Part shown: positions 16,665 to 58,457 of the stretch, piece after piece
Position numbering within the stretch: the stretch's first letter is position 1
Layout of the letters: every line of letters begins with the position of its first letter
Made by a program: the position numbers and the translations under genes
From: Selenomonas sp. F0473
GTDB taxonomy: Bacteria > Bacillota > Negativicutes > Selenomonadales > Selenomonadaceae
Length of the DNA: 64,000 bases
Assembly (NCBI RefSeq): GCF_000315545.1
Contig: NZ_JH992902.1
Coordinates: 97,280 to 161,279 of the forward strand
Direction of reading: 5' to 3'
Notes under the pieces: generated by a model
Told to the model about the DNA's origin: nothing
What the model saw: only the letters and a program-made list of their open reading frames with translations
The model's database searches: none

Positions 16665-17282
16665 ATGGTTGAAATCCGATTTAACGGCGTCGGGCAGTCA
16701 TTTGAAGGGCGAGAAGTGCTGCGGGACGTCACCCGTAACTTTGTCGGCGGACGGATAACGGCGGTTGCGGGCCCGAACGGCAGCGGGAAGTCGACGCTGC
16801 TCCGCCTTGCGGCGCGGCTGATGATACCGACGTCGGGACGGGTCGAGACATTTCTTGACGGGGCGGAGGTCACCGGTGCGGCGTACCGTGTGCTGATTGG
16901 GATGGCAACGCCGGAGATGGAACTCTATACGCGTCTGACGGTGCGCGAAAATCTCGCTTTTCTGCTTGGGGCGCGCGGCGTTTCTGTGGAGGAATCGGCT
17001 CTGCAAGATCTGCTCGCGCGTATCGGGCTTTCGACGGAAGTCTTGTCTCGTCCGGCAGGACAGCTCTCCACGGGGATGCGTCAGCGCGTGCGGCTCGCGG
17101 TGCTCTTCGGCACCGATACGGATGTATGGCTGCTCGATGAGCCGGGGCTGGCGCTTGACAAGGCGGGATGCGCTCTTCTCAGAGAGGAAGTCCGCCATGC
17201 CGCCGCGCGCGGCCGGCTCATCCTGTGGGCGACAAACGACCGTGCGGAGAAGGAGGCGGCGGATGCGTGCATCGATCTTTGA
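16665..17282 (+). CDS. ccmA: Haem exporter ATP-binding protein CcmA
   Basis: This 205-residue ABC ATPase powers the CcmABC complex that releases haem-loaded CcmE. Walker A is VAGPNGSGKSTLLRL, the signature is LSTGMRQRVRLAV, and Walker B is VWLLDEPGLALD. The ATG at 16665 follows GGAAGGGA. It is the first gene of the ccmABCEF-nrfHA operon. A weak promoter (TTGAAG 16619-16624, TAAAGT 16642-16647) is possible upstream. It overlaps ccmB by 20 bases. Confidence 0.9.
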   Translation: MVEIRFNGVGQSFEGREVLRDVTRNFVGGRITAVAGPNGSGKSTLLRLAARLMIPTSGRVETFLDGAEVTGAAYRVLIGMATPEMELYTRLTVRENLAFLLGARGVSVEESALQDLLARIGLSTEVLSRPAGQLSTGMRQRVRLAVLFGTDTDVWLLDEPGLALDKAGCALLREEVRHAAARGRLILWATNDRAEKEAADACIDL

Positions 17283-17919
17283 GGCAACACGCCGTGTCGC
17301 CTACAAGGAACTCCTCGACGGTGTGCGTCACCGCGCAGGCTATGTGACGATGGGCATGTTCGCCCTCACTGTCATCGCCTTTATGAGTATGTCGCTTGCA
17401 GGCGATATGCCGGATGCGCGGCAGTCGGCGACGCTCTACTGGATCGTACTCTTCTTCGCGGCAACACTCCAAGGGGAACGCCTCTTTGCAGAGGAGGCTG
17501 CGGCAGGAACGCTTCTCTTCCTGCGGATCTATGTTCCGGCACAGGCGGTGCTCTTTGGCAAGATGGCGGCACACCTTGTCACACTGTTGATTCTTTCCGT
17601 TATCATTATGCCGTTCGTCATCGTCTTAATGGATGCGATGTTTATGCTCGATACGGCATTTCTCGCTGTCCTCCTGCTCGCGCTTTGGGGGATGGCGGCG
17701 GCAGATACCCTCCTCGCGGCGGTTGCCGCGTCTGCAAGCGTGCGCGGAGGTCTCGTGCCGGTGCTGCTACTGCCGTCGATGCTCCCCATTCTCCTGACTG
17801 CGATTGCCATTACAGCGGGAGAGGACGAGGGAGTACTGCTCGGCGGTATCCTCATCTACGATATGGCGCTTACGGTTGGGGCGTCGCTCCTGTTCGACTA
17901 TCTATGGATTGAAAGCTAG
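17263..17919 (+). CDS. ccmB: Haem exporter membrane protein CcmB
   Basis: This 218-residue integral membrane protein fits CcmB: six hydrophobic segments and the family start (FEATRRVAYKELLDGVRHR, then a first membrane span). The segment RGGLVPVLLLPSMLPILL is typical of the family. The ATG at 17263 is preceded by AAGGAGG inside ccmA. It works with CcmA and CcmC in haem delivery to the outer face of the inner membrane. Confidence 0.9.
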   Translation: MRASIFEATRRVAYKELLDGVRHRAGYVTMGMFALTVIAFMSMSLAGDMPDARQSATLYWIVLFFAATLQGERLFAEEAAAGTLLFLRIYVPAQAVLFGKMAAHLVTLLILSVIIMPFVIVLMDAMFMLDTAFLAVLLLALWGMAAADTLLAAVAASASVRGGLVPVLLLPSMLPILLTAIAITAGEDEGVLLGGILIYDMALTVGASLLFDYLWIES

Positions 17920-17936
17920 GGGGAAGGGGGATATCG

Positions 17937-18548
17937 ATGCTCAAAGGAGCCATCGGCATCTTAACGGCTGCCGCTCTCTATGCCGTGTTCTTCGTCGTTC
18001 CTCCGGCGGAGAGACTGGGCGAGTACGTGCGCATTGCATTCTTCCACATCCCCGTCGCGTGGGTCTCGGTCATCGCGTTTTTCTATGCCGCGTACCGCGG
18101 CGGGCGCTATCTGCGGACACGCGATCTTAAACACGATGCTGCGAGCGCGCGCGCAGCCGTACTTGGGCTCATCTTCACGCTCCTCGCGACAGGGAGCGGG
18201 GCGATTTTTTCAAAACTGACGTGGGGCGCGTACTGGAATTGGGATCCGCGGCAGACGACGATCTTCATCCTGCTCCTCATCTACGGCGCCTATCTGACGC
18301 TGCGCATGACGATGCGGGAGGAACGCGCGCGGGCGTCCGCATCGGCGGTCTATGCGCTCTTTTCCTTTCTCTCGGTTCCGTTCCTCGTATTCATTCTGCC
18401 GCGTATGTTCTTCTCGCTGCACCCGTCGCCCGTCATCAACGGCGCGGGACAGCTCGATATGGACCGCGTTATGCTTGCCGTGTTGATGCTTTGTCTTGTG
18501 GATGTAACGCTTATATTTGCCTGGCTGATGAAACGGAGGCCGTCATGA
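17937..18548 (+). CDS. ccmC: Cytochrome c maturation protein CcmC
   Basis: This 203-residue, six-span membrane protein carries the WWD haem-handling motif (WGAYWNWDPRQTTIF) and conserved periplasmic histidines (FFHIPVAWV and FSLHPSPV). CcmC presents haem to CcmE. The stop codon overlaps the ATG of ccmE (ATGA at 18545-18548). No ccmD is visible after it, although such genes are tiny. Confidence 0.94.
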   Translation: MLKGAIGILTAAALYAVFFVVPPAERLGEYVRIAFFHIPVAWVSVIAFFYAAYRGGRYLRTRDLKHDAASARAAVLGLIFTLLATGSGAIFSKLTWGAYWNWDPRQTTIFILLLIYGAYLTLRMTMREERARASASAVYALFSFLSVPFLVFILPRMFFSLHPSPVINGAGQLDMDRVMLAVLMLCLVDVTLIFAWLMKRRPS

Positions 18549-18920
18549 ATCGTACCTATCTATTTATCGGGCTCATTCTTGCCTTTATCGGATGCCGGCT
18601 ATTTCTTTGCGGACTCCGTGACGCCCTACGTCGGTATCGCAGAGGCGCGTGCGGTGGCGCGCAACGTGCAGGTCAAGGGCCTGCCGGATAAATCGGTCGC
18701 GGCGCATATGGAGGACGAGACGTTCGTGTTCTCCATCGCCGACGAGGAGACGGGCGAAACGATGCTCGTGCGCTATAAGGGCGTCAAGCCCGACACGTTC
18801 GACGAGGCGTATCACATCGTCGCCATCGGCAAATATGCGGACGGCAGCTTCAATGCGGACAAACTGCTGATCAAATGTCCCTCCAAATATGAATCCCAGA
18901 AGGGCAAGGTAAACGTATGA
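18545..18920 (+). CDS. ccmE: Haem chaperone CcmE, apparent frameshift
   Basis: The gene begins with an ATG overlapping the ccmC stop and encodes MNRTYLFIGLILAFIG, a normal CcmE membrane anchor. The frame is then lost: the rest of CcmE (AGYFFADSVTPYVGIAEA onward) lies in another frame. Removing one base near 18593 joins the two exactly. The remainder is an OB-fold CcmE domain with VQVKGLPDKSV and a C-terminal CPSKY, placing Cys in the haem-attachment position (CxxxY instead of the usual HxxxY). The end overlaps the ccmF start. Without correction, only a TTG-started soluble fragment (18579-18920) could be made. A sequencing error, true mutation, or recoding event are all possible. Confidence 0.8.
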
Positions 18921-21049
18921 TCGGTACCGTGTTTCTCGCCGGTGTGCTCCTTTCGGCGCTCGGTGCAGCCGTGTGTGACGCGCAGGGAAAGCATCGCGCG
19001 AGCGATATCTGCGCGTATCTCGCGGGACTCTTAGCGCTCGGCGCGGCGGCCGCGCTCCTCGCCGCGATTCTCACGGATGACTTCGGCTATGCCTACGTCG
19101 TGAGCTACTCGTCCATCGCGCTGCCGCTGCTCTACAAGGTATCGGCATTTTGGGCGGGGCAGCAGGGCTCCTTCCTTCTCTGGCTCCTCATTCACGCCGT
19201 CGTCGGCGTGATCATTGTGCGGCAGGGGCGTATGGGGACGTTCGGGCGCATTGTCTATCAGCTGCTGACGGCGCTGCTCGTCTTCCTCGTGCTGATCAAA
19301 AGTCCCTTCGCGTATGCGGAGACGATGGTCTCCGACGGCAACGGGATGAATCCGCTCCTGCAAGACCCGTGGATGGCGGTACATCCGCCGATCATTTTCG
19401 TCGGCTACGCGCTGCTCGCCGTGCCGTTCGCCTACTCGATCGAGAGCATGCTGAAGGCGCCCGCAGACGGCAATTTCCTCGCCCCTATGCGGCGTTGGGC
19501 GCTCGTCGCGTGGGCGTTCCTCGGCGCCGGCATCTTCATCGGCGGCTACTGGGCGTACAAGGTGCTCGGCTGGGGCGGCTACTGGGGCTGGGATCCCGTG
19601 GAGAACTCCTCCCTCGTGCCGTGGCTGCTCGCCTGCGTGCTCATCCATCTGATCTCTGTGGCGCGTGAGCGGCGCGGGGCATACTATCTCGTACATCTGG
19701 CGGCGATATTCTCCTACGCGTTCGTCCTCTACGGCACGTTCCTCACGCGCAGCGGCATCCTCGGCGACTTCTCCGTGCACTCGTTCGCGGGATCGGACAT
19801 CGGGTTCTACATCGCGCTCGCGAACGGATTGGTGCTCCTCGCGGGACTCGGCATTCTCGCCGCACGGATCGAGCGCCTGCCGAAGGGGGCCGTCTACGGC
19901 GCGCACAAGAGCCGTGCATTTCTGATCCTCCTCGGTATGTTGCTGCTCGTCTTCATCACGGCGATCGTATTCTTCGGCATGTCGATGCCGCTCATCTCGG
20001 GACTGATCGGGGAGAGCGCAGCGGTCGATACGGGGTACTATGTGCGGACGACGCTGCCGATCGCCGTCGTGCTTGCCCTGCTGATGGGGGGCGGCGTACT
20101 CCTGCCGCGCACGGAGGGGGGGCTCGTTCGTCCCCCGTGGATCTTTGCCGCAGCCGTGCTCGGCGGCATCGCCGCAGGAGTCGCCGGCGTCACCGAGGCG
20201 GCCGCCGTGGTTCTCGCCGCGTTCGGGCTCTTTGCAGCGGCAGCGGCATGCGCCGCATTCCGTGGGCGGCGGCTTGGTCTTGGCGGGATGCTCGCCCACG
20301 TCGGCGCGGGACTCGCGCTCCTTGCTTTTGTCCTGTCGGGGAGCGGCAGTCAAACGATGACCGTGACGCTGACCCCCGATGTGCCGCAGGAAATCTACGG
20401 GCACACTGTCCTTTACCGCGGACAGGAATTCGCCGAGAGCGGCGGGGAAAAATCCTATCTCTACGAGGTGGACGGCGCGGCGTGTGAGGCGGTGACGAAA
20501 CTCCGCGCGAACGGCGAAGATGCGGCGCGGGAACCTGCGATCGCGCGGACGCTCTCGGGCGATCTCTACATCGCCCCGACGCCGACCGCAGCGGAGCGGG
20601 ACGAGATGATCCTGCACCGCGGCAGGACCGCGATGGGCGTGAACGATTATGCCTACCGCTATGAGGACATCAGCTACGAGCCGCAGGGCGGCGGCAAGAC
20701 CCTCGTCACCGCGGATGTCGCCGTGACGGACGGCGAGACGGTCGAGACGGCGCAGCCCTCGATCCTCGCCACAGAGCGCGGCGGCACCTCGCGTCCCGTC
20801 GATGTGATGGACGGAAAATTCCGCATCCGTCTCACAGGCGTCTCTGGCGACGATCGCGACATCCGGCTCGAGCTGCTGCCGGCACGCGCGGAGGAGGCTG
20901 CGCTGCCCGTTACCGCGGCGGTCAGTACGAAGCCCGGCATCTCGCTGCTCTGGCTCGCCTGCATGCTCGTCACCGCGGGCGGCATCGCGGCGGCACTGCG
21001 GATGCCGCGCGGCAAAGGAGGTGGATCGCAGCGTGATTCCCAGGAATAA
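18917..21049 (+). CDS. ccmF: Haem lyase CcmF
   Basis: This 710-residue polytopic membrane protein is the cytochrome c haem lyase. The WWD motif is WGGYWGWDPVENSSLVPWL; other hallmarks are NPLLQDPWMAVHPPIIF and YGTFLTRSGILGDFSVHSF. The C-terminal third has a periplasmic domain (about residues 475-670) before a last membrane span. No CcmH or CcmG follows, so this is a reduced Ccm set in which CcmF may act without the usual thiol-reduction partners, or those are encoded elsewhere. Confidence 0.95.
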   Translation: MIGTVFLAGVLLSALGAAVCDAQGKHRASDICAYLAGLLALGAAAALLAAILTDDFGYAYVVSYSSIALPLLYKVSAFWAGQQGSFLLWLLIHAVVGVIIVRQGRMGTFGRIVYQLLTALLVFLVLIKSPFAYAETMVSDGNGMNPLLQDPWMAVHPPIIFVGYALLAVPFAYSIESMLKAPADGNFLAPMRRWALVAWAFLGAGIFIGGYWAYKVLGWGGYWGWDPVENSSLVPWLLACVLIHLISVARERRGAYYLVHLAAIFSYAFVLYGTFLTRSGILGDFSVHSFAGSDIGFYIALANGLVLLAGLGILAARIERLPKGAVYGAHKSRAFLILLGMLLLVFITAIVFFGMSMPLISGLIGESAAVDTGYYVRTTLPIAVVLALLMGGGVLLPRTEGGLVRPPWIFAAAVLGGIAAGVAGVTEAAAVVLAAFGLFAAAAACAAFRGRRLGLGGMLAHVGAGLALLAFVLSGSGSQTMTVTLTPDVPQEIYGHTVLYRGQEFAESGGEKSYLYEVDGAACEAVTKLRANGEDAAREPAIARTLSGDLYIAPTPTAAERDEMILHRGRTAMGVNDYAYRYEDISYEPQGGGKTLVTADVAVTDGETVETAQPSILATERGGTSRPVDVMDGKFRIRLTGVSGDDRDIRLELLPARAEEAALPVTAAVSTKPGISLLWLACMLVTAGGIAAALRMPRGKGGGSQRDSQE

Positions 21050-21070
21050 AACAGAAGGGAGGAAGGAAAC

Positions 21071-21553
21071 ATGAATCTAAAGCAGCTTTTGGAGCGGCAT
21101 ACGCTACGCTGCATCATCGGCGGATTTGCCCTCGGGCTGATCGTCGTCGCGGGCGGCATGCTCATGGACAAGGCGTCGGCCTCGCCCGCATTCTGCGGTA
21201 TGTGCCACGCGATGCAGCATGAAGCCGCGACGCACGCCGTGTCCTCACACCAAAAGATTGCCTGCGTGGAATGCCATCTGCCGCATGATAACATCGCCGT
21301 CTATTACTTTGAAAAGGGAAAGACGGGCATGCACGACACGCTCCATCAGGTACTCGACGACTATCCCGTACACATCAAGATCTCCGATCACGGCCGGGAT
21401 ATCGTCAACGACAACTGTCTGCGCTGCCACGAGACCACCATGAGCGCCGTGTGCGTAGATCAGGGCAAAGACGGCAGCGCGACCTGTACGAAGTGTCACA
21501 GCCGCATTCCGCATGGTTCCAATCCTTTGGAAGGGGGGATAAGAGTTGAGTAA
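21071..21553 (+). CDS. nrfH: Cytochrome c nitrite reductase membrane subunit NrfH
   Basis: This 160-residue NapC/NirT-family cytochrome has one N-terminal membrane anchor (about residues 14-34) and four CxxCH haem sites (CGMCH, CVECH, CLRCH, CTKCH). It takes electrons from menaquinol and passes them to NrfA. AGGGAGGAAGG precedes the ATG. The gene follows ccmF by 21 bases and overlaps nrfA by 8 bases. Confidence 0.95.
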   Translation: MNLKQLLERHTLRCIIGGFALGLIVVAGGMLMDKASASPAFCGMCHAMQHEAATHAVSSHQKIACVECHLPHDNIAVYYFEKGKTGMHDTLHQVLDDYPVHIKISDHGRDIVNDNCLRCHETTMSAVCVDQGKDGSATCTKCHSRIPHGSNPLEGGIRVE

Positions 21554-22850
21554 CAGACAGAAAATCATCGCGGGCATGGCCGGGCTCTGCGCCCTGTTCT
21601 TTGGATTCGTCGCCGTGCGTATCGGCGCGCAGCCGAACGATACGAGTGTGAAGCTCGTCCAGATTTCCAAGGAGAACAACGCGCAGATTGGCAAGGAAGC
21701 GTACAAGGAAGCCTACCCGCTGCAGTACAACTCGTTCATGAAGAACAACGACGAGTCGCCGTCCCCCACGGGTTACGGCGGCAGCATGGAGGGGAACTCG
21801 CATCTCGAACATCAGCCCGAAATGGTCGAGAACTTCAAGGGGTACAAGTTCGCCATCCAGTATGACGACGACCGCGGACATACCTATGCGGGCTACGATC
21901 TCCTGCATTCGAAGCGTCTGCCGGGGCAGAAGGGCAGCTGTATCGTCTGCAAAGGCTCCTACATGTATGACGTCTGCTTCAAGGAGGACGGCTGGGCGTT
22001 TGCCTCCAAGCCGTTCCCCGAGGTCGCGGAGAACATCGCGGACGATCAGTGGTTCGGCTGCTCGAGCTGCCACGATCCCGACACGATGGAGCTGCGCGTC
22101 TATCAGCAGGGCTTCATCGAGTCGATGGCAAAGCGCGGCATCGATGTGAACGCCGCGAGCCACAACGAGATGCGCGCCTACGTCTGCGCACAGTGCCATA
22201 CGGAGTATTACTTCACGGCGGAGGACGGACGCGTCGCGCATCCCTATGAGAACGGCTTCGACGCCGAGGACGAGTACCGGTACTATCAGTCCGGCCAGGC
22301 GGGCGGATTCAAACGCGACTGGGTGCATGCCGATTCCAAGGCACAGATGCTCAAGGCGCAGCATCCGGACTTCGAGTCGTGGGCGACCAGCGTGCACGCG
22401 GATGCGGGCGTCACCTGCGTGGACTGCCATATGCCCTATATGCGTGACGGCGGCAAGAAGTACACGTCGCACTGGATGACGAGTCCGCTCAAAACGACGA
22501 AGGAATCCTGCCTCAAGTGTCACGACGAGAGCGAGGAGACGCTCGTCGCACGCGTGAAGACCATCCATGACAATACGTTCCGGCTCCAGCGCATCGCGGG
22601 ACAGACCGTCGCGAAGGCACATCTAACGATCAAGGCCGCGATGGACGCGGGCGTGCCCGACGCCGCGCTTGAGGATGCGCGGGCAAAAGTGCGCGAGGCA
22701 CAGTGGTACTGGGATTGGGTCGCCGCAGAGAACGGCGTCGGCTTCCATAACCCGGATAAAATGACGCGTACCGCGGGTCTTGCGATCGATCTCGCACATC
22801 AGGCGATCGAGTCCGCAGAAGCGGCGCGGTATGGATTTCAACCGCTCTAA
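21546..22850 (+). CDS. nrfA: Ammonia-forming cytochrome c nitrite reductase NrfA
   Basis: This 434-residue periplasmic enzyme reduces nitrite to ammonium with six electrons. Five haem sites are visible: the catalytic CxxCK (CIVCK, from about residue 132) and four CxxCH (CSSCH, CAQCH, CVDCH, CLKCH). An N-terminal signal anchor precedes them. The TTG start at 21546 has a GGAAGGGGG ribosome-binding site and overlaps nrfH. Together with ccmABCEF the operon makes and matures its own cytochromes. The special lyase that some bacteria need for CxxCK is not encoded nearby. Confidence 0.96.
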   Translation: MSNRQKIIAGMAGLCALFFGFVAVRIGAQPNDTSVKLVQISKENNAQIGKEAYKEAYPLQYNSFMKNNDESPSPTGYGGSMEGNSHLEHQPEMVENFKGYKFAIQYDDDRGHTYAGYDLLHSKRLPGQKGSCIVCKGSYMYDVCFKEDGWAFASKPFPEVAENIADDQWFGCSSCHDPDTMELRVYQQGFIESMAKRGIDVNAASHNEMRAYVCAQCHTEYYFTAEDGRVAHPYENGFDAEDEYRYYQSGQAGGFKRDWVHADSKAQMLKAQHPDFESWATSVHADAGVTCVDCHMPYMRDGGKKYTSHWMTSPLKTTKESCLKCHDESEETLVARVKTIHDNTFRLQRIAGQTVAKAHLTIKAAMDAGVPDAALEDARAKVREAQWYWDWVAAENGVGFHNPDKMTRTAGLAIDLAHQAIESAEAARYGFQPL

Positions 22851-52840: not shown

Positions 52841-52888
52841 GCCCCCATGTATCGGTCATTTACGTCCGACACATGGGGGCTGTTTTAT
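52841..52888 (+). terminator. Terminator after the PAS chemoreceptor
   Basis: GCCCCCATGT (52841-52850) pairs with ACATGGGGGC (52871-52880), followed by TGTTTTA. Confidence 0.85.
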
Positions 52889-53033: not shown

Positions 53034-54782
53034 ATGGATGAAAAACAAAACGGAGCGCTCAGCCGCAGGAATTTCCTCAAGGGCGGCGCGCTTGCGCTCG
53101 GCGGCTTCGTCGCCGCGCCGGCTCTCCTTGCGGGATGCGCGAAGAATCCGGACGATCATCTCATTCCTCCCGCGCCGCCTGCAGAGCCTCCGCCGCCGCC
53201 CGCGTGGCTCGGCACGGCTCCCGAGATTCCGGATGGAAAGATCGCCGAGGAACGCGTCGCTGATGTGGTAATCGTCGGCGCGGGACTTGCCGGCCTGACC
53301 GCCGCGCGTGCGGCATCGGAACACGGCGTGTCGGTTCTCGTCATGGAACGGGGAAGCACATGGCAGTGCCGCAGCGGGCAGTACGGGACGATCGGCAACC
53401 GCTACCAGCGGGCGCTCGGCATCACGTTTGACAAGAACGAAGCGATCCTTGAGAACATGAAGCAGATGGGCTACCGCTCGGATCAGCGCATGTGGAAGTA
53501 TTGGGCGGATCACAGCGGCGAGGATTTCGACTGGATGCTCGACCTCGCGCCCGCCGTCCATGTGATGAAGGAGACGGATACAGAACTCGACCGCTCGAAG
53601 ATCAATCTCATGATGATGCACTATCCGCTCCCCGCAGGCTACAATCGCGCGGAGGAGAACAGCCCGACCTACCCGACGGTCATGACGCTCCTGCCGAGTC
53701 AGGAGCCGCTTCTAAAACTCGTCTATGAGAAATGCCTCGCGCAGGGGTGCAAGTTTATCTTTGCGACGCGTGCGCGGAAACTCATTCGCGAGGAGGCGGA
53801 CGGGCGTGTGACGGCGGTGATCGGCGAGGATATTCACGGAAATTTCGTGCAGTGCGCGGCGCGCAAGGCCGTTGTCCTTGCAACGGGCGATTACGGGAAC
53901 AACAAAGAGATGATGGGGTATTTCGTGCCGTGGGCGGTCGACTATATGAACGTCTTCCCCAACCGCGACGCGTGGGACAGCCCCACCAATACGGGCGACG
54001 GGCACAAGATGGCGGCGTGGGTCGGCGGGAAGATCGAGGACGGCCCGCATGCGCCGATGATCCACACGCTCGGCGGCCCGCTCGGTGTGGACGCCTATCT
54101 GCTGCTGAACGACGACGGCAAGCGGTTCGTCAACGAGGATATCGGCGGGCAGCAGCTTTCCTGCGCGATCTACCGTCAGCGCGGCGACTATGCGTGGCAG
54201 ATCTTCGACGCGGATTTTCCGCAGCAGCTCGGCGCGATGGGCGTCTCGCACGGCAGCGTCAATCACTGCGTACCCGCCGCCGAGAATCCGAAACTGCCGC
54301 CGGATTGTCAATGGGCGATCGGCCGTACGTCCTACACCTCCGTGGAGGACGTGGAGAAGACGTCGGGACTGGTGAAGGCCGACACGATAGAAGCTCTTGC
54401 GGCGGCGCTCGCACCCGAACGTCCCGCTGTGCAGAAGACAATCCTCGCCGAGATCGCGCGCTACAACAAACTGGCACACGCGCACCATGACGCGGATTTC
54501 GGCAAGGCGGCAAAGCGGCTCTTCCCGATCGAAAAAGCGCCCTTTTATGCGGGCAAGATGCGCGGCGGCGCGCTTCTCGTCAACATGGGCGGGCTGACGG
54601 TGAACCCCGAGGACGGCAACGTGCTCGATCGGCAGTACCACGGCATCCCGGGGCTCTATGCGGCCGGCAATACGCAGGGCGGCCGTTTCGTCGGGGACTA
54701 TCCCGTCGTGACCGCGGGCGTCAGTCACGCCTTTGCGCTCGTCTATGGCCGCCTCGTCGGCAACGTCGTCGGGAAACTGTGA
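53034..54782 (+). CDS. Tat-exported lipoprotein flavoprotein reductase
   Basis: This 582-residue enzyme has a twin-arginine signal (SRRNFLKGGALALGGF) that ends in a lipobox (LLAGC), then a proline-rich tether and a fumarate-reductase-type FAD domain. FAD binding is at VVIVGAGLAGLTAARAASEHG, and the C-terminal FAD contact is IPGLYAAGNTQGGRFVGDYP. It is anchored outside the inner membrane. The HHTMGG segment typical of fumarate reductases is replaced by LLVNMGGL, so fumarate is not the likely substrate. It has no haem domain; the next gene supplies a cytochrome. The ATG at 53034 is set by AAAGGAG. The acceptor could be an unsaturated carboxylate or other organic compound. Confidence 0.88.
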   Translation: MDEKQNGALSRRNFLKGGALALGGFVAAPALLAGCAKNPDDHLIPPAPPAEPPPPPAWLGTAPEIPDGKIAEERVADVVIVGAGLAGLTAARAASEHGVSVLVMERGSTWQCRSGQYGTIGNRYQRALGITFDKNEAILENMKQMGYRSDQRMWKYWADHSGEDFDWMLDLAPAVHVMKETDTELDRSKINLMMMHYPLPAGYNRAEENSPTYPTVMTLLPSQEPLLKLVYEKCLAQGCKFIFATRARKLIREEADGRVTAVIGEDIHGNFVQCAARKAVVLATGDYGNNKEMMGYFVPWAVDYMNVFPNRDAWDSPTNTGDGHKMAAWVGGKIEDGPHAPMIHTLGGPLGVDAYLLLNDDGKRFVNEDIGGQQLSCAIYRQRGDYAWQIFDADFPQQLGAMGVSHGSVNHCVPAAENPKLPPDCQWAIGRTSYTSVEDVEKTSGLVKADTIEALAAALAPERPAVQKTILAEIARYNKLAHAHHDADFGKAAKRLFPIEKAPFYAGKMRGGALLVNMGGLTVNPEDGNVLDRQYHGIPGLYAAGNTQGGRFVGDYPVVTAGVSHAFALVYGRLVGNVVGKL

Positions 54783-54794
54783 GGAGGGGGAACG

Positions 54795-55322
54795 ATGCGA
54801 TTCTTATCGAAACTCAAACAGCCGCGCGTCCTGCTGATCCTCATCGTATGTGCCGCAGCCGCTGGATTCGGCGGGCTGGCAGTTCTTTCGACCGTCAGCG
54901 CGAAGCCCGCGTTCTGCGCGACCTGCCACAATATGCAGCCCGAATATGACAGCTACACGCATGAGGGATTTCTCGCAAAGGCGCATGCGGATGCAGGCGT
55001 GACCTGCCACGACTGCCACGAACCGACGCTTCTGCAGCAGATGAACGAGGGCTGGCTGTTTGTCACGGGAAACTATGAAAACCCAATGCAGAAGTACGGA
55101 TTCACGAATGAGCAGTGTCTTTCCTGCCACAATTTCGAGGAGGTCAAGCGTGCCACCGCGCACTACGGCAAGGAGAACCCGCACGATCCCGTCCACCTCG
55201 CGGGCAACGAGAATCCGCAGCGGTGCATGGACTGCCACAGCGTCCATCACAAGCAGTCCGCGCAGAAATGCAGCGCCTGTCATCCTGTGAGCTGGAAACT
55301 GGATACGAGCTGGGAACAGTGA
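54795..55322 (+). CDS. Membrane-anchored pentahaem cytochrome c (NapC/NirT type)
   Basis: This 175-residue protein has an N-terminal membrane anchor (about residues 12-34) and five CxxCH sites (CATCH, CHDCH, CLSCH, CMDCH, CSACH). It resembles NapC/NirT/NrfH quinol dehydrogenases, which normally have four haems, so the fifth near the C-terminus is notable. It very likely moves electrons from menaquinol to the flavoprotein encoded 12 bases upstream. GAGGAGGGGG precedes the ATG. A strong terminator follows, so the two genes form a complete respiratory module. Confidence 0.92.
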   Translation: MRFLSKLKQPRVLLILIVCAAAAGFGGLAVLSTVSAKPAFCATCHNMQPEYDSYTHEGFLAKAHADAGVTCHDCHEPTLLQQMNEGWLFVTGNYENPMQKYGFTNEQCLSCHNFEEVKRATAHYGKENPHDPVHLAGNENPQRCMDCHSVHHKQSAQKCSACHPVSWKLDTSWEQ

Positions 55323-55323
55323 T

Positions 55324-55361
55324 TATACAAAGAGAGATGCCGCGGCATCTCTCTTTGTATA
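55324..55361 (+). terminator. Terminator after the cytochrome gene
   Basis: A perfect 38-base palindrome (core GAGATGCCG/CGGCATCTC) lies directly after the stop codon; it ends in TTTGTATA. Confidence 0.88.
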
Positions 55362-55433: not shown

Positions 55434-55462
55434 TTGACAGGAATAGCCCGTAGTGATATGAT
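55434..55462 (+). promoter_or_regulatory. Strong promoter of ahpC
   Basis: Consensus TTGACA (55434-55439) and TATGAT (55457-55462) are 17 bases apart. An AT-rich palindrome AATAATTATT (55405-55414) lies 20 bases upstream. Confidence 0.85.
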
Positions 55463-55535
55463 GATCCCATCCATAGGACATATCCAATCGGTCGACGCAT
55501 GGGCGGTTGGTTTTAGGAACAAAGGAGGATTTTTA

Positions 55536-56117
55536 ATGTCTCAGATCAATAAGGAAATCGGCGATTTTAAGGTAGATGCGTTCCAGAAGAAGGCGGGGGC
55601 CGCACAGGGCGAGTTCAAGCAGTACACGAAGGCCGATCTTAAGGGCAAGTGGAGCGTGTTCTTCTTCTACCCGGCGGACTTTACGTTTGTCTGCCCGACG
55701 GAGCTCGCGGATCTCCAGGATCAGTATGCGGAGTTCCAGAAACTCGGCTGCGAGATCTTCGGCGTCTCCTGCGACTCCCATTTTGTTCACAAAGCGTGGC
55801 ATGAGAGCTCCGATTTGGTCGGCAAACTCACCTATCCGATGCTCGCGGATCCGACGGCGAAACTCGCACGCGACTTCGACGTCTACATCGAGGAGGACGG
55901 CCGTGCCGAACGCGGCACGTTCGTTGTGAACCCCGAGGGCAGAATCGTTTCCTACGAGGTCAGCGCGGGCAATGTCGGCCGCAACGCCGCAGAACTCCTT
56001 CGCAAGGTACAGGCACTCCAGTTCGTTGCCGAACACGGCGATGAGGTTTGCCCCGCACGCTGGAAGCCGGGCGAAAAGACGCTGAAGCCGAGTTTTGATC
56101 TTGTCGGCAAACTCTAA
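55536..56117 (+). CDS. ahpC: Peroxiredoxin AhpC
   Basis: This 193-residue typical 2-Cys peroxiredoxin reduces hydrogen peroxide and organic peroxides. The peroxidatic Cys is in FFYPADFTFVCPTELADLQ, and the resolving Cys is in EVCPARWKPGEKTL. AAAGGAGG precedes the ATG at 55536. It has a strong promoter and is followed by a terminator, then by its reductase, matching high expression of the peroxidase relative to the reductase. Confidence 0.96.
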   Translation: MSQINKEIGDFKVDAFQKKAGAAQGEFKQYTKADLKGKWSVFFFYPADFTFVCPTELADLQDQYAEFQKLGCEIFGVSCDSHFVHKAWHESSDLVGKLTYPMLADPTAKLARDFDVYIEEDGRAERGTFVVNPEGRIVSYEVSAGNVGRNAAELLRKVQALQFVAEHGDEVCPARWKPGEKTLKPSFDLVGKL

Positions 56118-56130
56118 GACGCTATATAGG

Positions 56131-56164
56131 GCACTTTGCGAGGGCGCTCGTAAAGTGCTTTTTC
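56131..56164 (+). terminator. Terminator between ahpC and its reductase
   Basis: GCACTTTGCGAG pairs with CTCGTAAAGTGC around a 4-base loop, followed by TTTTT. It may be leaky, letting some transcription reach the reductase gene. Confidence 0.85.
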
Positions 56165-56191
56165 TTATGAAGAGACAAAAGAGGTGCACTG

Positions 56192-57823
56192 ATGGATAAA
56201 ATGTATGATGCCGTGATTGTCGGGGGCGGCCCCGCGGGTCTTTCGGCGGCGATTTACCTGGCGCGCGCCAAATGCAAAGTCCTCGTCGTAGAGAAGGAAA
56301 AAACGGGCGGACAGATCACCATCACTGCCGATGTCGTCAACTATCCGGGCCTTGCTAAGATCAGCGGTGCGGAGTTGGCGGCACAGATGGAGCGGCAGGC
56401 GCGCGGCTTCGGCGCGGAGTTCCTTTCCGCCGAGGTGATCGGCTTGAAGCTCGACCAGGACGTGAAGGAACTTGAGACGACGGCGGGAACGGTGCGGGCG
56501 CTCAGCGTCATTCTCGCGACGGGCGCAAATCCGCGCAAGGTCGGGTTTGCCGGAGAGAAACAGTTCCAAGGGCGCGGCGTCGCGTACTGCGCAACCTGCG
56601 ACGCGGAGTTTTTCACGGGGATGGATATCTTCGTCATCGGCGGCGGTATGTCGGCGGTGGAGGAGAGTATGTTCCTCTCGCGCTACGGCAGGTCTGTCAC
56701 GATCCTCGTGCGCGGCGACAAGTTCCGTGCGCCGCAGACCGCGGTGGATGCGCTCGCAAAGTACCCGAACGTCAGCGTGCGGTTCAATACGGTCGTTGAT
56801 GCTGTAGGCGGCGAGACGATGCTCTCTTATGCGGATTTCCGCAACGACGCGACGGGAGAGACGGAAAGATTCGCCCCGCGCGACGGCGAGACATTCGGTC
56901 TCTTTGTCTTTGCGGGGTATATACCGAATACGGGACTCTTCCGCAATCTCGTCGCGCTGAACGAGCAGGGCTACATTCTCACGGATGAGAGACAGGAGAC
57001 AAATGTCAAGGGTGTATTCGCGGCGGGAGACGTCTGCGTCAAGGAGCTGCGTCAGGTCGTTACGGCGGTCTCCGACGGTGCGGTCAGCGCGGTTGCGGCG
57101 GAGCGTCATGCGGCGGCGCTGCACGACAAACTGAATCTGCCGGCGTTCTCGCGCCCCGAAGTCGATACGGCACGGCTCGAGCAGCGTCGGACCTCCATCG
57201 AAAAAGAGGCGGCGGAGGGGAACGAGACGAATTTCATCTCCGCGGAGATCAGAGCGCAGCTGGCCGCGGTGTTTGAGAAATTCGCCGCCCCCGTGAAGGT
57301 TGTCGGTCACTATGATAGCGGCGAGCTCTCGGTAGAACTGCGCGGTTTCATGGATGAGTTCGCGGGGCTCACGGACAAGGTGCGCTACGAGGCGAAGAAC
57401 GATGCAAACGGGCAGCCGGGGGTCGAATTCCTCCATGCCGACGGGACGCCGAGCGGCATCACGTTCCACGCGGTGCCGGGCGGACACGAGTTCAACTCGT
57501 TCATCCTTGCCCTGTATAATGTCGCGGGACCCGGACAGGAAATTCGCCCCGAGACGCAGGAAAAGATCGCGCGCATCACGAAATCTATCGATGTGAAGGT
57601 TCTGATGTCTCTGTCCTGCACGATGTGTCCCGATGTGGTCGCGGCAGTGCAGCGCATCGCATCCCTGTGCGGTAATGTCCGTGCGGACATCTACGATATC
57701 CGGTATTTCCCGGAACTCAAGGAGCAGTACAGCGTTATGAGCGTTCCCTGCATGATCGTGGGGGAGGAGCTGCACTTCGGCAAGAAGAATATCGACGAGA
57801 TCGCCGATATCCTGGCAAAATAA
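56192..57823 (+). CDS. AhpF-like peroxiredoxin reductase with C-terminal glutaredoxin-like domain
   Basis: This 543-residue flavoenzyme has a thioredoxin-reductase part at the N-terminus (FAD site VIVGGGPAGLSAAIYLARA, redox CATC at Cys133/Cys136, NAD site IFVIGGGMSAVEESMFL, GVFAAGDVC). A tandem thioredoxin-fold domain follows at the C-terminus (about residues 335-543), with the redox pair CTMC at Cys476/Cys479. Standard AhpF has this disulfide domain at the N-terminus, so the order is reversed. It presumably passes NAD(P)H electrons to AhpC, encoded just upstream. This arrangement is known as an AhpF-homologue family in anaerobes. Confidence 0.9.
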   Translation: MDKMYDAVIVGGGPAGLSAAIYLARAKCKVLVVEKEKTGGQITITADVVNYPGLAKISGAELAAQMERQARGFGAEFLSAEVIGLKLDQDVKELETTAGTVRALSVILATGANPRKVGFAGEKQFQGRGVAYCATCDAEFFTGMDIFVIGGGMSAVEESMFLSRYGRSVTILVRGDKFRAPQTAVDALAKYPNVSVRFNTVVDAVGGETMLSYADFRNDATGETERFAPRDGETFGLFVFAGYIPNTGLFRNLVALNEQGYILTDERQETNVKGVFAAGDVCVKELRQVVTAVSDGAVSAVAAERHAAALHDKLNLPAFSRPEVDTARLEQRRTSIEKEAAEGNETNFISAEIRAQLAAVFEKFAAPVKVVGHYDSGELSVELRGFMDEFAGLTDKVRYEAKNDANGQPGVEFLHADGTPSGITFHAVPGGHEFNSFILALYNVAGPGQEIRPETQEKIARITKSIDVKVLMSLSCTMCPDVVAAVQRIASLCGNVRADIYDIRYFPELKEQYSVMSVPCMIVGEELHFGKKNIDEIADILAK

Positions 57824-57923
57824 TACCGCATTTCACACGCCCCTGAGCAAGGCGACTGTCGGTAGATATTTGCCGGTATCCATATGTTTTTTGTGTATAT
57901 ATTTTAGTAAAGGAGAGTTCATC

Positions 57924-58457
57924 ATGGAGCTGAAGGGTTCACAGACGGAGAAAAATCTTTGGGCGGCGTTTGCCGGCGAGTCACAGGCGCATACGAAGTA
58001 CCTGTACTACGCGTCGCAGGCGAAGAAGGACGGTTACGTTCAGATTTCGGACATCTTCAACGAGACGGCGGTCAACGAGAAGGCGCACGCCAAGATTTGG
58101 TTCAAACTCGTTGCCGGTATCGGCGATACGAAGGCGAACCTTGCCGCCGCGGCCGCGGGAGAGAACGAAGAGTGGACGAGTATGTATCCCGAGTTCGCAC
58201 GCGTGGCGCGTGAAGAGGGGTTCGACAAGATCGCCCGTCTCTTCGACGCGGTCGGCAAGATTGAGCAGAGGCACGATACGCGCTATCGGATCCTTCTCGA
58301 AAATGTCGAGGAGGGACGCGTGTTCAAGCGCGATGAAAAGATCATCTGGCAGTGCCTGAACTGCGGCTATGTCTGCGAGAGCCCGCAGGCGCCGATGAAG
58401 TGTCCGGTCTGCGAACATCCGCAGTCGTTCTTTCAGCAGGTTGTGCAGAATTACTGA
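57924..58457 (+). CDS. rbr: Rubrerythrin
   Basis: This 177-residue di-iron protein reduces hydrogen peroxide in anaerobes. The ferritin-like part has ExxH-type ligands (AGESQAHTKYLYYA, NETAVNEKAHAKIWFK, KIEQRHDTRYRILL), and the C-terminal rubredoxin centre is CLNCGYVCESPQAPMKCPVCEHP. AAAGGAGAG precedes the ATG at 57924. It continues the oxidative-stress block after ahpC and its reductase, although it may be transcribed separately. Confidence 0.96.
   Translation: MELKGSQTEKNLWAAFAGESQAHTKYLYYASQAKKDGYVQISDIFNETAVNEKAHAKIWFKLVAGIGDTKANLAAAAAGENEEWTSMYPEFARVAREEGFDKIARLFDAVGKIEQRHDTRYRILLENVEEGRVFKRDEKIIWQCLNCGYVCESPQAPMKCPVCEHPQSFFQQVVQNY

Follow-up and report, generated by a model that had tools for sequence, protein, structure and literature searches.

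A secreted flavoprotein and a pentaheme cytochrome from Selenomonas sp. F0473 that probably form a respiratory module unlike canonical fumarate reductase

Organization of the locus

The stretch of 64,000 nt of the Selenomonas sp. F0473 genome analyzed here (the window) contains two adjacent genes, coding for a secreted flavoprotein and a membrane cytochrome, that probably constitute a respiratory module. The flavoprotein gene extends from an ATG at 53034 to a stop codon at 54782 (582 residues) and the cytochrome gene from an ATG at 54795 to a stop codon at 55322 (175 residues); they lie on the same strand, separated by 12 bases, and a Shine-Dalgarno-like sequence precedes each of them. The first product matches PF00890 (2.3e-47), whereas the second matches PF03264 (Cytochrom_NNT, 4.1e-10) and PF14537 (Cytochrom_c3_2, 5.8e-9) and contains five CXXCH motifs. 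The ratio of nonsynonymous to synonymous substitutions (dN/dS) was 0.056 and 0.074 for flavoprotein and cytochrome, respectively, when compared with the orthologs from S. artemidis, so the pair is not a chance feature, and 0.073 and 0.099 when compared with those from genome G001; both genes are under purifying selection. The coordinates, domains, heme motifs and selection thus bear out the original prediction of a two-gene, respiratory-type module.

Conservation was examined in an alignment of 51 of 72 rows, comprising 15 orthologs and 36 of the 53 more distant relatives; the 15 were the full-length orthologs (18) minus the near-copies L015, L042 and L047. The features recognized at the locus are:

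53034..54782, + strand: flavoprotein, predicted lipoprotein exported by the twin-arginine translocation (Tat) pathway, PF00890 (flavocytochrome c / ketosteroid dehydrogenase-like fold); open reading frame, Pfam, model and structure comparison
53061..53081, + strand: twin-arginine motif SRRNFLK, residues 10–16; direct reading, R11 and R12 invariant in the 15 aligned orthologs
53136..53138, + strand: lipobox Cys35 (LLAGC); direct reading, invariant in the 15 aligned orthologs
53277..53294, + strand: dinucleotide-binding GAGLAG for flavin adenine dinucleotide (FAD), residues 82–87; G82, G84 and G87 invariant in the 51 aligned sequences
54573..54593, + strand: LLVNMGG, residues 514–520, at the site of VHHTMGG in fumarate reductase; alignments
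54684..54701, + strand: R551-F-V-G-D-Y556, with subfamily-specific Arg551 and with Tyr556 in the region of Fcc3 Arg544 and ketosteroid dehydrogenase Tyr487; alignments
54795..55322, + strand: membrane-anchored pentaheme c-type cytochrome, 175 residues; open reading frame, Pfam and heme motif count
54828..54884, + strand: N-terminal hydrophobic anchor of the cytochrome, residues 12–30; 19-residue mean of 2.6 from residue 12, model helix 10–34
54915..54935, + strand: first heme motif, CATCHNM (CXXCHxM; compare CTSCHIM in NrfH); motif reading and alignment
55089..55313, + strand: C-terminal three-heme stretch, residues 99–173, matching the flavocytochrome c3 heme domain; profile search and PF14537
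52841..52880, + strand: hairpin upstream of the pair, followed by TGTTTT, a possible terminator of the preceding chemoreceptor-like gene
55325..55360, + strand: hairpin of 16 pairs directly 3′ of the cytochrome gene, the likely end of the two-gene unit

The flanking hairpins and the leaders suggest that the pair is likely a bounded two-gene unit. The next gene downstream codes for a peroxiredoxin (TIGR03137, 283.6 bits against a cut-off of 272) and has its own strong promoter-like match at 55434 (11/12); the total of promoter-like sites in the region is unremarkable (3, with 1.3 expected).

Host genome and cellular location

The genome, that of an oral-type Selenomonas, comprises 2.07 Mb in one contig and its nearest named relative is S. 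artemidis DSM 19719 (92 %). This kinship, the outer membrane that Selenomonas, of Gram-negative type, possesses and the presence in the window of a gene for a TonB-dependent receptor place the pair in the periplasm, and not outside the cell as had been supposed. Export as a Tat-dependent lipoprotein, also predicted earlier, agrees with the invariant twin arginines of SRRNFLK and the invariant cysteine of LLAGC.

The genome has ten matches to PF00890, only two of them strong: the flavoprotein (164 bits) and an FrdA-sized frame of 611 residues (288 bits), the third-best match scoring 39.6 bits. Two proteins match PF03264: the cytochrome of the pair, and one next to a Cytochrom_C552 protein, this second protein and its neighbor being the products of nrfH and nrfA. 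The latter lie in the window (16665–22850), where maturation genes for an ATP-binding cassette protein, CcmB, a CcmC-like protein and CcmF are followed by the nrfH- and nrfA-type genes, for ammonifying nitrite reduction. We counted the presence of cytochrome c maturation genes and NrfHA in the genome in favor of a respiratory role for the pair.

The flavoprotein and its active site

The structure model of the flavoprotein (mean predicted local distance difference test of 85.9) resembles urocanate reductase UrdA (6t86; Z 39.1, root-mean-square deviation 3.3, 431 residues aligned), a flavocytochrome (1qo8; Z 38.4, 5.0, 436), ketosteroid dehydrogenase (4at0; Z 37.4, 3.3, 450) and the Shewanella flavocytochrome c3 Fcc3 (1qjd; Z 37.0, 5.0, 433). 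The comparison does not discriminate, because urocanate reductase, flavocytochromes, and ketosteroid and cyclohexanone dehydrogenases all score between Z 34.6 and 39.1. Among the NCBIfam matches listed, the best was vinyl phenol reductase VprA (NF053717, a model of 481 positions), with 182.5 bits against a cut-off of 600 and its best stretch covering residues 230–579. The score was also below the cut-off for flavocytochrome c (TIGR01813, 130.1 against 285.45 bits) and for ketosteroid dehydrogenase (NF009478, 84.4 of 789 bits; NF005882, 76.1 of 788). Tricarballylate dehydrogenase likewise stayed below cut-off, and neither this set of family scores nor the structure singles out an acceptor.

We compared the fumarate ligands in a single-sequence and in a profile alignment, with the numbering anchored on the printed mutants H365A, H505A, H505Y and R402Y; ligand roles were taken from general knowledge and from an excerpt of PMC4427408. 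The catalytic Arg402 of Fcc3 falls on Gly372 in both alignments, His505 on Val516, and His504 on Leu514 (single-sequence) or Leu515 (profile). The carboxylate-binding Arg544 falls on Pro557 (single-sequence) or Val559 (profile), or on Tyr556 by an ungapped count, and His365 on Ile343 (profile), or on Ala340 or a gap (single-sequence), with the ortholog-invariant His344 close by. Likewise, the UrdA segment EELERRD, situated after GERF and carrying the catalytic arginine, aligns to NEDIGGQ, with this arginine also on Gly372. The two arginines and two histidines of fumarate reductase are therefore not intact at the aligned places, in agreement with the original prediction of a different pocket, and a canonical fumarate reductase was rejected on the loss of the aligned ligands Arg402, His504 and Arg544.

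The segment LLVNMGG had been offered as the sign of a new acceptor. It does occupy the VHHTMGG site, but it is the normal motif of a large secreted family (of the 36 diverged relatives in the alignment, 34 keep L515, 32 V516 and 33 G519) and was discarded as a mark of that kind. A better argument appears to be a discrete subfamily with invariant residues beside the lost fumarate ligands. Where the subfamily has a residue of its own, the 36 other relatives mostly carry Phe or Tyr in place of Arg551 (33 of them), Tyr or Phe in place of Gly372 (24), Tyr in place of Gln374 (22), Asp in place of Thr345 (27) and Gln in place of Asp353 (25); the loop 403–434 is specific to the subfamily as well. Altogether, 81 positions are invariant in the 15 orthologs and shared by no more than 20 % of the 36 relatives, some of them beside the places aligned with fumarate ligands. 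His344 is invariant in the orthologs and is also found in 11 of the 36 others. These alignments argue that the flavoprotein belongs to a new subfamily of a known kind and is not a canonical fumarate reductase, its distinctive trait appearing to be a pocket with residues of its own (R551, G372, Q374 and T345); a new acceptor is possible.

All 51 aligned sequences have Tyr556. The ends of the alignment with KstD1 put its residue 489 on position 558, and hence Tyr487 on Tyr556, a correspondence deduced from these ends and not from inspection of the alignment itself. According to an excerpt of PMC5953540, Cgr2 shares two residues with ketosteroid dehydrogenases, of which G536 mattered and Y532 did not, so that any role of Tyr556 is put forward only tentatively. 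Within the subfamily-specific loop (window 54267–54308), Cys412 (15/15) and Cys425 (14/15 aligned orthologs) perhaps form a disulfide.

The cytochrome

The cytochrome has an anchor of the NrfH/NapC type and a CXXCHxM first heme. A search with the single sequence retrieved NrfB (6.8e-5), NrfH (9.7e-5) and flavocytochrome c (6.8e-4), and a profile of 19 cytochromes (14 from orthologs and five others) separated two regions: profile positions 16–78 matched NrfH weakly (0.0028), and positions 99–173 matched residues 27–98 of the Shewanella flavocytochrome c3 heme domain (ca. 2e-7). The latter alignment spans the last three heme motifs, and the extra histidines are paired. NrfH has four hemes, and the score against its model was below the cut-off (TIGR03153, 39 of 134.2 bits) for this protein with five CXXCH. 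The structure model was weak (predicted template modeling score of 0.39).

The cytochrome is thus a composite of an NrfH/NapC-like start and a stretch homologous to the flavocytochrome c3 heme domain, so that the heme wire fused to the enzyme in flavocytochrome c3 sits here on the membrane donor. This layout is already known, since Cgr1 is likewise both PF14537 and NrfH-like according to an excerpt of its paper (PMC5953540). The parallel with Cgr drawn in the original prediction gains from this, the Cgr1 model also being the best NCBIfam match of the cytochrome, albeit below the cut-off (48.1 of 340 bits).

Distribution of the subfamily and gene pairing

Orthologs of the flavoprotein show 59–92 % identity, compared to a maximum of 43 % over the full length for other relatives; short C-terminal stretches of two non-orthologs reach 48–50 %. 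They occur in five of the 14 genomes of the genus, that of the window included and with one copy in each of the five, in ten of the 380 genomes of the class, which its named relatives indicate to be Negativicutes, and in six of 298 genomes drawn from the Campylobacter class. In a sample of 398 genomes of the phylum, only that of the window has a match above 43 % identity; the best match in plasmids reached 36.6 %. A pattern-limited scan, covering 84,980 species with one genome each, found 11 loci: five in Negativicutes (S. artemidis, S. ruminantium S137, a red-deer Selenomonas metagenome-assembled genome (MAG), Pectinatus brassicae and Sporomusa acidovorans), four in Campylobacter species (C. 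concisus, C. showae, C. gastrosuis and C. majalis), one in a Campylobacter MAG fragment and one in a MAG labelled Proteobacteria that groups with the Campylobacter ones. The relatives are therefore members of Selenomonas, Pectinatus, Sporomusa and Campylobacter, and not the typical gut anaerobes to which the pair had been likened. In Sporomusa acidovorans, four related flavoprotein genes, 34–41 % identical to the query, lie in a row (G064:C44:72245–80226), with the ortholog elsewhere.

A gene with five CXXCH motifs lies directly downstream, on the same strand, in 18 of the 18 full-length, non-redundant orthologs, and its first motif is CXXCHNM in all 18. Three proteins of C. concisus H32O-S2 match PF00890 at 1e-15: the ortholog and two of FrdA/MfrA size. 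The subfamily is not the subject of any title among the matches listed in a search of open-licence papers. In the available part of a proteomic study of C. concisus, a ‘flavocytochrome c’ (WP_012140366.1) was at 0.06-fold with fumarate (PMC5966568); this protein, from another strain, may be the ortholog and is kept as an unconfirmed lead.

Acquisition and decay of the pair

Trees of the flavoprotein and of the cytochrome, each with 32 rows (the 18 orthologs plus 14 other relatives, taken from the 28 that have a cytochrome close by), both recovered the ortholog clade (100/100) and a Campylobacterota clade of eight rows (100/100). These phylogenies give good support to a transfer of the pair between phyla and only suggest its direction.

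Within the genus, in genomes G001, G010 and G011, the pair is situated between ahpC and a gene that we take to be nspC-like; in the window and in S. artemidis, ahpC is still downstream and the upstream genes differ. Genome G004, from a sister species, retains at that place, ahead of ahpC, only 149 bases of the leader and start together with the last 49 residues of the cytochrome (L142:5669–6075). In eight of the 14 genus genomes the flanking genes adjoin; nothing of the pair was found there above 45 bits at the protein level, and at the DNA level (E 0.001) there were only two matches of 37 bases. Lastly, in a Campylobacter close to C. concisus (G153, L083:1516–2294) only the last 85 residues of the flavoprotein are left, next to a complete cytochrome that is 100 % identical to that of C. 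concisus (L046). The module is thus present, decayed or absent among close relatives.

Genomic neighborhood

The genes for the peroxiredoxin, an AhpF-like protein and rubrerythrin (55434–58457) directly follow the pair, a position that is kept in the sister species. In S. ruminantium S137 the following gene codes for an EmrB-type DHA2 efflux permease (TIGR00711, 237.9 against 230.2 bits), and there are divergent regulators with PRD domains both here and in Pectinatus. The five Campylobacterota loci with long flanks (L046:2308–5970 in C. concisus, and L047–L050) all contain, ahead of the flavoprotein gene and in the same direction, a gene for an exported-looking protein of ca. 474 residues, its frame split in two in L049, and a divergent pair of sensor and OmpR-type regulator; where scanned, in C. 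concisus L046, the sensor was of the ArsS family (377.7 against 250 bits). A tblastn search found none of these three genes in the nine Negativicutes loci examined. The 474-residue protein had no match in PDB sequences (E ≤5), in Pfam (E ≤10, two orthologs) or in NCBIfam (0.001), and looks porin-like on impression only. The neighbors in the S. ruminantium, Pectinatus and Campylobacter loci name no substrate. The same five gene clusters adjoin the pair in Pectinatus (L044:8267–12340) and, in G040, a more distant pair (L056:15228–19001); by eye, they look like a cytochrome c maturation set.

Proposed function and alternatives

We consider it likely, from the sequence comparisons above, that the pair is a menaquinol-linked, periplasmic two-protein reductase for an organic acceptor other than fumarate that carries an activated C=C bond. 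At the membrane, menaquinol would give up electrons to the pentaheme cytochrome, at its NrfH/NapC-like front, and these would pass through its last three hemes, whose homology to the heme wire of flavocytochrome c3 is documented above, to the FAD of the Tat-exported lipoprotein. The flavin would then donate a hydride to the activated C=C bond (an enone or an unsaturated acid) of a small organic acceptor, with Tyr556, Arg551 and His344 as the likeliest candidates for holding or protonating the substrate. Since the ligands of fumarate are lost at the aligned places, fumarate itself is an improbable acceptor.

Several observations weigh against this proposal. The direction of electron flow is deduced from the type of cytochrome only. 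No NCBIfam family reached its cut-off, either among the best 25 of the 54 matching the flavoprotein or among the eight matching the cytochrome. A simple terminator scan lists neither of the hairpins at 52841–52880 and 55325–55360, for which reason the bounded unit is called likely only. A multiheme frame was found within 1.5 kb in 28 of the 53 more distant relatives, a lower bound owing to short flanks, and pairing is no family-wide rule. The two trees conflict in the placement of Campylobacterota, among the Selenomonas rows for the cytochrome (branch 98/98) but apart from ten Negativicutes rows on one side for the flavoprotein (91/83), so co-inheritance is imperfectly mirrored. The complete cytochrome beside a truncated flavoprotein in genome G153 may mean that the cytochrome also works without its partner.

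The module could also run in reverse, as a dehydrogenase that oxidizes a ketone, a steroid-like or a tricarballylate-like substrate and reduces the quinone pool. The relatives do include ketosteroid and cyclohexanone dehydrogenases as well as the TcuA models, and the ends of the KstD1 alignment superpose Tyr556 and Tyr487; we nevertheless judge this unlikely, as the partner starts like NrfH, a quinol-oxidizing type, in its CXXCHxM motif and membrane anchor, and as fermentative anaerobes more often need electron sinks. Little probability is also given to an electron shuttle or general flavin reductase that serves other periplasmic acceptors or extracellular electron transfer and has no small-molecule substrate of its own. 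Such a role was proposed for an extracytoplasmic flavoprotein of Desulfitobacterium in the available part of PMC9888536, but the 81 ortholog-invariant positions, rare among the 36 relatives and in part near the ligand places, fit a specific pocket better.

UrdA has an N-terminal FMN_bind domain, which is not among the 12 Pfam families found at E 0.001. It is very unlikely that the flavoprotein is a urocanate reductase or a periplasmic fumarate reductase whose active site is rearranged: this would agree with the common fold (Z 37.0 to 1qjd and 39.1 to 6t86), with the invariant His344, which the profile alignment puts one residue away from Fcc3 His365, with the invariant Arg551 in the region of Fcc3 Arg544 and with the reading, in an excerpt of PMC11457942, of five C. 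californiensis flavocytochrome loci as fumarate reductases ‘or possibly other electron acceptors’, but it is opposed by Gly372 at the place of Fcc3 Arg402 and of its UrdA counterpart, by Val516 at that of His505, by the lack of FMN_bind, by a TIGR01813 score of only 130 of 285 bits and by the second strong PF00890 protein of the genome, which is FrdA-sized.

Building on the periplasmic reductase of a non-fumarate acceptor, we put forward a bolder idea, tentative and in our view somewhat doubtful: the subfamily may be one isofunctional group that respires a single acceptor new to flavoprotein reductases, and the whole pair may have moved, as a plug-in module, between Campylobacter and Selenomonas-type Negativicutes; in Campylobacter it comes with its own sensor pair and exported protein. 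Secreted flavoprotein reductases have a share in determining which compounds of the diet or the host anaerobes can respire, and for many of these enzymes no substrate is known. The pair offers a compact test case, with a single copy per genome in five genomes of the genus, a slot that is filled, decayed or empty in sister genomes and the same module in Campylobacter; the identity of the acceptor could tie two groups of oral anaerobes to one compound. The cytochrome, in turn, is an example of the flavocytochrome c3 heme wire placed on a membrane donor instead of on the enzyme.

Comparison with known systems

The closest parallel in layout is Cgr1/Cgr2 from Eggerthella lenta, likewise a two-gene operon for a Tat-exported PF00890 flavoprotein and a membrane-anchored, NrfH-like PF14537 cytochrome, and in Cgr2 most fumarate reductase residues have also diverged (excerpt of PMC5953540). 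The cytochrome differs from Cgr1 in scoring only 48 of 340 bits with its model and, with Cgr2 compared by description, the flavoprotein may differ from this [4Fe-4S]-requiring enzyme, as only Cys412 and Cys425 are nearly always kept outside the lipobox. The likeness to Cgr carries no implication of digoxin-type substrates.

The pair shares the flavoprotein fold (Z 37.0 to 1qjd and 38.4 to 1qo8) and the heme stretch with Shewanella Fcc3 and Ifc3, which work with CymA, but the hemes are on the membrane cytochrome instead of on the flavoprotein, and the fumarate ligands are off the aligned places. The methacrylate system Mrd/Mcc and Wolinella FccA are also two-gene systems of secreted flavoprotein and multiheme cytochrome that tend to transfer as a pair; Mrd, known to us by description, keeps His461, Arg501 and Arg353 as counterparts of fumarate reductase residues (excerpt of PMC4427408), whereas the flavoprotein described here lacks them at the aligned places. 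VprA gives the best family score, far under its cut-off of 600 bits. Desulfitobacterium hafniense DCB-2 possesses 19 comparable fumarate-reductase-like flavoproteins whose substrates are unidentified, according to the available part of PMC3306737; unlike that set, the flavoprotein described here falls in a subfamily of its own, with no other of the 398 phylum genomes above 43 % identity. The pair thus belongs to a broad kind already known, an exported PF00890 flavoprotein tied to a quinol-type multiheme cytochrome, and this holds for 18 of the 18 full-length orthologs.

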